Shown: positions 37,277 to 40,408 of the stretch, piece after piece
Position numbering within the stretch: position 1 is the stretch's first letter
Layout of the letters: every line of letters starts with the position of its first letter
From: Actinomycetes bacterium
GTDB taxonomy: Bacteria; Actinomycetota; Acidimicrobiia; Acidimicrobiales; Acidimicrobiaceae
Direction: 5' to 3'
Length of the DNA: 42,799 nt
Assembly (NCBI GenBank): GCA_021842145.1
Contig: JAKCBW010000006.1
Location: 1 to 42,799, forward strand
The notes under the pieces: model-generated
The model's input: only the letters and a program-made list of their open reading frames with translations
The model's database searches: none
Told to the model about the DNA's origin: nothing
Position numbers and translations under genes: made by a program

Positions 37277-39319
37277 ATGGGAGCAAGCTTGCGAGCCAAC
37301 AAAACTCCAAAGTGGACCAATAGGTCATGGCACCTTGAGCTTGCTAGTGAGCGAGGACGCTGGACTTCATGGCTGACAGCGTTAGCGTTTTTACTTGCTG
37401 GCTGCACTATAGGGACTAACAATACACAGGGGAGTGCACCTCCGACCTCCTCGCAGAAGGGTACTCACGGTACCGGGGCAAAGACCGAGGTACAATGTCC
37501 CTTCAGTTACGCTTTCACCCAGGTGACCCAGTCGAATACCGGAGCCATCTCTGGTTGCTACCGGATTCCACCAGCTAACCCCGGACCGCTCACTCTGGCT
37601 ATTGAGAGCGGCCCAAACTTCAAGTCGTCCATTAATACAACCGGCTCCTCTCAGCCTAAGGTCGCCTTGGATAAGCCGAAAAATCCGGTCATTGCGGGTA
37701 AATCCATCACCATTTTCGGTTCTTACGTCGGCTCGACTCCGAGCGGACACCTCCCCCGCCACGCCACGGCATGCTGGGGAGGTTGCTCAAGCGGCCTCCA
37801 TGAGGACGCTGTCCCGGTAACCCAGCTAGGTGGGGGAAGGTTTAGCTTCGTTCTACTTACTCCTGGCGCACCTTGGGTGCAAGGTAACGGAGTACATTCC
37901 TTGGTCTCGGGAAGCTACAGAATCTCGCTAACCTGCCTCTCCTACTATTCAAGGGGTTGCGAATACGGCCCAGCTCAGGGGGGTGTAAGAGTCGACCTAC
38001 GGGTAATTCACCCGATGATGTGCAGTAAGGGATGTTCAAAGCTAACCGCAAGCCCTGGGGAAGCCCTACCCGGGGAAGTCGTGAAAATTACTGGGTTCTC
38101 TCCGGTCTATGAGATCATTGGCAATAATCCGGTCGCGCCAAATCTGACAGCCTTTCCCGGAAAGGAATCGGTGCAGATTCCAACGGTTTCCACCTTCGCC
38201 AAACCCTACGCCACCGAGACAATACTCGCCAAAACAACATTGACGGTCAAAAAGGGAACCAGCTGGAGCGACCTGAAGGCCATTACCGGGCCAAGCTCCA
38301 TAGGGATACCGGACCAAAACACGATAGCTAGCATTTCGGGCAGTCCCGGGATAACCGCATACTGTTCTCAAACTGGGCTGATGATCTCGACGGATTCAGC
38401 AAAGACCTGGACGAAAAGCCCGCTAAATGGGATCGCTGGAGTGATCCAATCCCAGCGGCTTTCACCACTAGCCTTTCAACCGCCAAACTGCTACCAGGTC
38501 GCCCTCGAACCTGGGTATTCAGCAAGCCTCTTCACAGCTTTCCCTGTCACCCCATTTAGCCAGCCCGCTCCACCGGTCTACCTCGATCCCCTATATTCGA
38601 CCGACTCGGGATTGAACTGGAAATCTGTCCCGATACCTAACGGCCTTACCCCGATCGACTTCTCAGCATTCATAAACAGAGGATCTGAAATCGAAGCCTA
38701 CTTCACCCGTCCCAACTCGATAGTTGGGACTATTGAAACGACCATTAATGGAGGCCAGACCTGGACGAATTCGGCGCCCAAGTGTCCAATAACTGGACCG
38801 TGCATAGCAATAGAGCCAACAATCCCCGGTAACTGCGCAATGAACGGCATGCCTACGAACCTCGTCTACTCATTGAACCACGGTTTGACCTGGGGAAAAG
38901 CCATGTGGCCGTACTCGATAAATATCTGCAACTTTGCCGAGATAGTCCCCCTTGGACCAAAATCTGCGCTGCTAATTGCTGGCGAATCGAACTACCCGCT
39001 GAGAGTCACCTACGACAGCGGGGTAACGTGGAGTTATGTATCACTTCCTCAACTACCAGGGAGCGACACGGCCATTTTGGGAGCAAACCAGCCACTCTAC
39101 CTTTTGCCCAATGGGTCGCTGCTATCATACGGGTCGAAGTGGATGCTGCTGACGCCCGGCTCAAAAAGCTGGTGTATACCAAAGGCAACAATTGCTGGCT
39201 CCAATAGCTTCATATTCGCTGCACCCAAGGTCAACTTTGGCCATTTCGAATGGATAAGCTCCAGCCCTCAAAGCACTTTCGAGTCTTTGCCTCTCTCGAA
39301 GCTGACCTGTCGAAGCTGA
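37277..39319 (+). CDS. Cysteine-rich secreted lipoprotein with Asp-box (BNR-like) repeats
   Basis: 680 residues, function not known. A long charged N-terminus is followed by WLTALAFLLAGC, a lipobox with Cys43. The mature protein has about 16 further cysteines, often in close pairs, as in disulfide-bonded extracellular proteins. The second half holds five Asp-box motifs, S/T-x-[DN]-x-G-x-x-W: STDSAKTW (about 370), STDSGLNW (439), INGGQTW (488), SLNHGLTW (530) and TYDSGVTW (578). These form turns of beta-propellers seen in sialidase-like and Ycf48/Vps10-like proteins; no sialidase active-site set was recognised. The start has GAAGG upstream. The last eight codons lie within the 14-bp repeat array, which supplies the final Cys and the stop. 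Confidence 0.8.
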   Translation: MGASLRANKTPKWTNRSWHLELASERGRWTSWLTALAFLLAGCTIGTNNTQGSAPPTSSQKGTHGTGAKTEVQCPFSYAFTQVTQSNTGAISGCYRIPPANPGPLTLAIESGPNFKSSINTTGSSQPKVALDKPKNPVIAGKSITIFGSYVGSTPSGHLPRHATACWGGCSSGLHEDAVPVTQLGGGRFSFVLLTPGAPWVQGNGVHSLVSGSYRISLTCLSYYSRGCEYGPAQGGVRVDLRVIHPMMCSKGCSKLTASPGEALPGEVVKITGFSPVYEIIGNNPVAPNLTAFPGKESVQIPTVSTFAKPYATETILAKTTLTVKKGTSWSDLKAITGPSSIGIPDQNTIASISGSPGITAYCSQTGLMISTDSAKTWTKSPLNGIAGVIQSQRLSPLAFQPPNCYQVALEPGYSASLFTAFPVTPFSQPAPPVYLDPLYSTDSGLNWKSVPIPNGLTPIDFSAFINRGSEIEAYFTRPNSIVGTIETTINGGQTWTNSAPKCPITGPCIAIEPTIPGNCAMNGMPTNLVYSLNHGLTWGKAMWPYSINICNFAEIVPLGPKSALLIAGESNYPLRVTYDSGVTWSYVSLPQLPGSDTAILGANQPLYLLPNGSLLSYGSKWMLLTPGSKSWCIPKATIAGSNSFIFAAPKVNFGHFEWISSSPQSTFESLPLSKLTCRS

Positions 39320-39415
39320 CCTGTCGAAGCTGACCTGTCGAAGCTGACCTGTCGAAGCTGACCTGTCGAAGCTGACCTGTCGAAGCTGACCTGTCGAAGC
39401 TGACCTGTCGAAGCT
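39297..39415 (+). repeat. Array of 14-bp tandem repeats, about 8.5 copies
   Basis: The unit CGAAGCTGACCTGT occurs eight times without a change, followed by the partial copy CGAAGCT. The first copies code for the end of the lipoprotein and its TGA stop. Because 14 is not a multiple of 3, every plus-strand frame meets TGA within 42 nt, whereas the minus strand has no stop in any frame. Perfect identity suggests recent expansion or ongoing slippage. It lies between convergent genes. Confidence 0.95.
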
Positions 39416-39769
39416 AGAGTGACGGGGAGAATCTCCCGGCCCATCCTCTGCTCTGTCGAGCCCTCTGAGACTAAAAGCAGCAAAATAATATACAACGACC
39501 AGCAACCCGGCCATCCGAAGGTGCAATTGGCAGGTCGCAGTGAAAGGCGGAATCGGACCGATCGGCACCACTCGAAGCATCATCTGGATCCGCAATAGTT
39601 GACCGCTTTATATTCTCAAAATATGACTTTCACGTCGTCCAGATGTCACCGGACTAACGGAGATCTCTCAGCTCCACAACCGCCGGTGCATGTTCGACTT
39701 TTCAGTTTCTGTACCGATTTCGTCGCTAAATACCTCTGGGTTCTAAATACCTCTGGATTCTAAATACCT
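39416..39769. other. Intergenic region between convergent transcription units
   Basis: About 350 bp between the repeat array and the response regulator gene on the other strand. No gene was recognised. GGGAG-AAT-CTCCC makes a small dyad near 39425-39437. The region ends in the 17-bp repeats at 39726-39771. Confidence 0.5.
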
Positions 39770-39771
39770 TT
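39726..39771 (+). repeat. 17-bp tandem repeat, 2.7 copies, touching a stop codon
   Basis: CTAAATACCTCTGG plus three further bases is repeated at 39726-39742 and 39743-39759, then partly at 39760-39771. The third copy overlaps the TAA of the response regulator gene. One base differs between the first two copies. Confidence 0.8.
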
Positions 39772-40408
39772 AGTCGCCGAATAGACCATATCTATATGCG
39801 TAAACTACCGCCTGCACTCGATCCCGCAACTTCAGCTTGAACAGAATCCTAGAGATGTAGGTCTTCACCGTCGCTTCAGATAGATAGAGGTGCTCCCCAA
39901 TCTCTTGATTTGACCACCCCTGAGCGAGGCACTTTAGCACTTCGAGCTCTCTGGAACTCAGATCTTCAACCTCTGCAGGCGGCTCATATCTAAAGGTGGG
40001 GGCCTCGCGAACCAGGTTCAAAACCGTCTTGGTGACCGATGGGGAAAGTGCAGCATCACCGTTTGCTATCGACCTCACCGCCCCGACTAACTCCTCGGCG
40101 GTGGAATCCTTTAGTAAAAATCCGCTCGCTCCCGCCGCTAACGCCGAGACGACGTATTGGTCTAGGTCGAAAGTCGTTAGTATCAAGACCTTTGACGACT
40201 TGATTTGTCTCGTGGCTTCGATCCCGTCCATGTGGGGCATCCTGATATCCATGAGGACTACGTCAGGTGCCAGCCGCTCCGCCAGCTCTACCGCCTGTTC
40301 ACCATCACTTGCTTCTGCAACGACATCGATATCGCCCTGGGCCTCAAGGATCAACTTGAACCCGGAGCGAATCATAGGCTGGTCGTCGACGATCAGTACC
40401 CTAATCAA
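39770..40408 (-). CDS. NarL/LuxR-type response regulator
   Basis: 212 residues. Receiver domain: VLIVDDQPMIRSGFKLILEAQ, phospho-acceptor in VVLMDIRMPHMDG, switch Thr in LILTTFD and Lys in FLLKDS. Then a LuxR-type helix-turn-helix, LSSRELEVLKCLAQGWSNQEIGEHLYLSEATVKTYISRILFKLKLRDRVQAVVYAY. The TTG start overlaps the kinase gene's TGA (TTGA) and has AAGGA five bases upstream. It is the last gene of a four-gene operon with an ABC transporter and the cognate kinase. By family it would activate the transporter genes in response to an envelope or drug signal. Confidence 0.93.
   Translation of the reverse strand: MIRVLIVDDQPMIRSGFKLILEAQGDIDVVAEASDGEQAVELAERLAPDVVLMDIRMPHMDGIEATRQIKSSKVLILTTFDLDQYVVSALAAGASGFLLKDSTAEELVGAVRSIANGDAALSPSVTKTVLNLVREAPTFRYEPPAEVEDLSSRELEVLKCLAQGWSNQEIGEHLYLSEATVKTYISRILFKLKLRDRVQAVVYAYRYGLFGD

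Follow-up and report, generated by a model that had tools for sequence, protein, structure and literature searches.

How does a protein-coding gene come to end inside a perfect tandem repeat, and what does the repeat do to the protein that it terminates? These questions are raised by a putative lipoprotein gene in an actinomycete of the Acidimicrobiaceae (assembly GCA_021842145.1), which we analysed in a stretch of 42,799 nt (the window; contig JAKCBW010000006.1, our contig 157). The genome, here G000, is a 2.0-Mb draft of 206 contigs that is 76% complete. At positions 39296 to 39415 of the plus strand, TRF called an array with a period of 14, 8.6 copies and 100% matches, and a script counted 120 consecutive matching bases from 39296. 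The 120 nt consist of eight full units of TCGAAGCTGACCTG followed by 8 nt (8.57 copies, 100% identity), in agreement with the eight identical copies and a half described in the initial annotation; the end given there, 39415, is also right, whereas the true start lies one base to the left of its 39297. The longest run of period-14 identity is 106 nt, compared with at most 9 nt across 20 mononucleotide-shuffled versions of the window, and with up to two mismatches the 14-mer occurs eight times, against 0.37 expected from dinucleotide shuffles. By unit length (above 10 nt) and identity (14 nt × 8.6, 100%), this is a bacterial minisatellite, or variable-number tandem repeat (VNTR), whose exact copy number rests on the assembly because the genome is a draft.

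The host gene (37277 to 39319, plus strand) encodes 680 residues, and by eye its product has a lipobox-like LLAGC close to the N-terminus and Asp-box/BNR-like motifs. Pfam gave nothing above threshold, with sub-threshold matches of BNR type (a weak BNR_2) and of other kinds; the only ncbifam match, to a glycosylhydrolase, was likewise below threshold, and no meaningful match was found among the sequences of solved structures. Among named relatives, the one closest to this gene is carried by a metagenome-assembled Acidimicrobiaceae bacterium (JABEUO010000037.1). The array codes for the last seven residues, SKLTCRS (39296 to 39316), and the open reading frame takes its TGA stop (39317 to 39319) from the second unit, as had been proposed; the accompanying proposal that the array encodes a final Cys was mistaken, since the protein ends in Ser 680 and the Cys lies at position 678. 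The locus does lie between convergent genes, with a response regulator gene (Response_reg and GerE/LuxR domains) on the minus strand at 39770 to 40408 and a histidine kinase gene next after it. The same intergenic gap contains a second short array of 17 nt × 2.6 (39726 to 39769).

We compared the locus across five genomes of the genus, G000 included, and 42 of the family. A member of the lipoprotein family is present in four of the five (again with G000) and in 24 of the 42, and usable orthologues of the array locus were provided by G002 and G003; G004 has the response-regulator side only, near a contig end, and G001 only a distant lipoprotein homologue (33% identity). The G003 lipoprotein shares 75% identity with that of the window across its C-terminal 259 residues and has no array, its gene ending CTC ACA AAG CTC ACC TGT AGA AGT TAG, that is, in Lys-Leu-Thr-Cys-Arg-Ser and then TAG. 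The G002 lipoprotein is 95% identical and has the same end, SKLTCRS, with about 2.6 units (2 units + 9 nt) in its gene, which ends CTC TCA AAG CTG ACC TGT CGA AGC TGA and is followed by what is left of the second unit, part of a third and then GAGTGA. The window reads as G002 does but with TCG for TCA, has eight units and continues with AGAGTGA. Array length thus differs among the three genomes (none in G003, about 2.6 units in G002, 8.6 in the window), as it does in VNTRs, and the protein end KLTCRS is constant.

The initial annotation suggested that the array might stand in place of the gene's original end. We reject this possibility, because array-free G003 already ends in KLTCRS and the protein end therefore predates the array. 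Homologous loci in the family agree: of 35 that were read, we set aside 6 (5 that duplicated one place and 1 truncated at a contig end), and a Cys stands among the final six residues in 28 of the remaining 29 members, where the frequency of Cys elsewhere predicts 13%. Between the window and G002, dN/dS is 0.27 (42.5 synonymous and 36.5 nonsynonymous differences), a value indicative of purifying selection on the gene between the two. Judged from these sequence comparisons, the C-terminus is native and constrained, and the exchange affected the stop codon alone. The ancestral stop persists as a relic: the TAG that ends the gene in G003 is found at 39415 to 39417 of the window (plus strand) and falls in frame when the array is reset to one unit. 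At this site G002 reads TGG, as expected because the stop is no longer used, though a single substitution is weak evidence.

The exchange of stop codons can be understood from the length of the unit. A length of 14 nt is not divisible by 3 and shifts the reading frame by one in the second unit, so that AAG-CTG-ACC becomes AGC-TGA, the stop lands exactly at the former TAG and the protein is unchanged for one or more copies. Within the array, TGA recurs every 42 nt in each of the three plus-strand frames, which bears out the earlier observation that every such frame ends within 42 nt. In an in-silico model of copy number, all arrays of n = 1 to n = 11 gave a protein of 680 residues with the same end, stopping at TAG for n = 1 and at TGA for n = 2 to 11, and n = 0 gave 677 residues ending in SKLE. 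The prediction that copy-number change would leave the protein end unchanged thus holds in silico from one to eleven units, n = 0 being the exception, and within that range the array does not switch the protein as a phase-variable contingency repeat would. Because the protein is unchanged at copy numbers of one or more, expansion would be close to neutral and unchecked by selection at the protein level.

It is very probable, in our view, that the array is a young minisatellite derived from the gene's own last codons by local duplication and slippage, under near-neutral conditions. Two near-identical 8-mers (TCRAAGCT), TC(A/G)AAGCT and TCGAAGCT, code for SKL and (C)RS and lie 14 nt apart, and this near-repeat probably seeded the first duplication. 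In the ancestor shared by G000 and G002, slipped-strand mispairing or recombination between the 8-mers would have duplicated 14 nt, leaving an 8-nt partial unit, which matches the observed array; the TGA of the second unit would then have replaced TAG as the stop, leaving the old TAG behind, and later slippage would have brought the window's lineage to about eight units. The seed is derived from the window and G002, and G003 agrees with it at only 4 of 8 positions (by eye). Growth had been described as recent, and so it is relative to the split from G002 with its two units and 9 nt, although the ancestor of G000 and G002 could instead have had more units and G002 could have undergone contraction. 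The TCG of the window's first unit, compared with TCA in G002, may be due to either homogenisation or a point mutation, which cannot be told apart here. Neutral slippage remains the most likely cause of the array, and it is from the comparisons above that we infer this mechanism, the order of its events and their neutrality.

A local birth was further examined against the possibility of a dispersed element. In the 76%-complete draft, with at most one mismatch, the unit was found only at positions 39296 to 39407 of contig 157, so the search for other arrays of the same unit that had been suggested earlier returned none. No two exact units were found in the genome_contigs and viral_contigs sets, from which the window's own or very near genomes are possibly omitted, and no similar DNA was found in plasmids or phages. 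Since the draft genome carries the unit nowhere else and the contig sets gave no exact two-unit match, the array appears to have been born locally; one unit at several loci, as in a dispersed repeat of the MIRU type, is not what we observe, and we reject a dispersed element.

Short arrays are nevertheless common in this genome. A survey of the window and 18 further stretches of G000 (an 11% sample; TRF score of at least 50) found 25 distinct arrays in 225,641 nt, among which the stop-spanning lipoprotein array has the highest copy number. Only two of the 25 overlap the stop of an open reading frame of at least 100 codons, compared with 2.6 by random placement (two against 1.4 with a limit of 150 codons), and one of these two, L050, is also inside another open reading frame and may be spurious; we thus reject the idea that arrays are enriched at stop codons in G000. 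For six arrays we compared orthologues in G002, namely, the lipoprotein array, the 17-nt array at 39726 and four chosen for their high score, and all six differ in copy number, which is not a rate because the choice favours long G000 arrays. The copies in G000 and G002 are 8.6 and 2.6, 5.5 and 3.5, about 3 and 5, and 5.5 and about 2.5; of the remaining two, the array at 39726 has one 17-nt unit fewer in G002, and the other has one 21-nt unit more there. As far as these sequences indicate, array length generally turns over between the two genomes. The initial expectation of a hypervariable locus is supported to that extent, that is, at the level of two species-level genomes that differ in copy number.

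Two further repeats may be noted. The 17-nt array at L049:5626-5680 has about 3 copies, compared with 5 in its G002 orthologue L075, and its units resemble one another within either genome and differ from those of the other, a pattern that suggests homogenisation. Just upstream of two lipoprotein homologues (L035:1419-1463 and L036:3572-3662, in G029 and G013), there is a perfect 23-nt repeat, with 2 copies in one of these genomes and 4 in the second, a possible case of promoter-repeat variation.

Could the array instead be kept by selection as a 3′ element, acting as an insulating RNA structure or terminator or as a set of protein-binding sites? Its position between convergent genes would suit such a role, as would the minus-strand RNA, whose fold is somewhat more stable than those of dinucleotide shuffles (z −2.1, 3/200), and a GC-rich hairpin (GGGAG-AAT-CTCCC, 39425 to 39440, plus strand) that lies just after the array and is also present in G002. 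However, on the plus strand the fold reaches a z of only −0.62, and when the unit was permuted, the resulting arrays equalled or exceeded the fold of the real one in 77% (plus strand) and 54% (minus strand) of 300 cases, so the modest minus-strand signal is explained by the repeat form itself. The terminator scan made no call at the array, and Rfam gave no match for it. The hairpin, a possible terminator identified from sequence, alignment and fold, lacks a T tract and is absent in G003, which also has no array, and the single genomic locus of the unit is unlike a regulator's site. We therefore reject a structured RNA or terminator on the fold tests, the terminator scan and Rfam, neither a hairpin with a T tract nor, the minus-strand z aside, a better-than-chance fold having been found, and consider selection for a 3′ element to be very unlikely, even if the array may have some role at the mRNA level. 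A gene on the minus strand, coding for a protein of 14-residue repeats and overlapping the lipoprotein end, is more improbable still, to the point of being negligible. As the initial annotation pointed out, all minus-strand frames are open across the array and code for one 14-residue repeat, and open reading frames of 144 and 75 residues cover it, but this openness is trivial because the reverse complement of the unit contains no stop, and in G002 all three corresponding frames carry stops, so the open reading frame is probably not a gene and we reject it as one. Overall, there is no good evidence for a function of the array from folding, the terminator scan, Rfam, recurrence of the unit or conservation of the minus-strand frames.

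A different concern is that the copy number, rather than the existence, of the array is a product of assembly, the true array being longer, shorter or mixed. A perfect repeat of 120 nt is close to the span limit of short-read graph assemblers, and the genome is a fragmented draft. On the other hand, the contig extends beyond the array in both directions, its flanks matching those of G002, and the five other orthologous arrays also differ from G002, as real variation would, so we regard an assembly product as unlikely, though less so than the functional readings above.

The origin proposed here may be considered at a more general level. A frame-shifting unit made from last codons recreates a stop in the next frame, so that an array of this origin would be unseen by protein-level selection and free to grow; such self-terminating repeats might recur in this lineage as a class of hypervariable 3′ ends, a generalisation that we find quite doubtful at present. 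Two other repeats at gene ends may be recorded here. A G002 paralogue of the lipoprotein (L012:1633-1666, contig 82 of G002) has a perfect 17-nt × 2 duplication across its own stop codon, for which no orthologue was found. In contig 173 of G002, a 15-nt × 2.6 array (L065:10433-10471) lies over the stop of a 154-codon open reading frame; it is not frame-shifting, its successive units carry TAA, TAG and TGA, and searches for its orthologue returned no more than partial flanking matches in G003 and G004 and nothing in G000 or G001. The lipoprotein locus itself offers a three-stage picture (no array, about 2.6 units and 8.6 units) of the birth of a minisatellite in coding sequence, with the stop taken over and the protein untouched. 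It could be useful in teaching or as a typing marker, and it leaves the general understanding unchanged; stop-codon takeover by a locally born minisatellite is an example of a known process, most probably ordinary DNA slippage. Our term searches found no paper on stop-codon capture by tandem repeats, as judged by title or the start of the abstract.

Like bacterial VNTRs and minisatellites, the lipoprotein array has head-to-tail units longer than 10 nt, near-perfect identity and a copy number that varies between relatives; unlike typical VNTRs, it spans a stop codon, and its unit is derived from codons of the gene that it terminates. Slippage and recombination are the two models for the evolution of tandem repeats put forward in one review, which also associates longer and purer arrays with a higher mutation frequency (PMC3899988). 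For Mycobacterium tuberculosis, another article reports promoter tandem repeats that vary in copy number and that its authors link to phenotypes and to variation within cultures (PMC12817950). The two cases share actinobacterial copy-number variation at a non-coding position beside genes and differ in that the lipoprotein array lies at the 3′ end of its gene and is described here from a comparison of genomes. Some mycobacterial interspersed repetitive units (MIRUs) overlap stop and start codons, and MIRUs are dispersed at many loci. Like some of these elements, the unit described here supplies a stop codon, and, unlike them, it occupies one locus, at which it was born.
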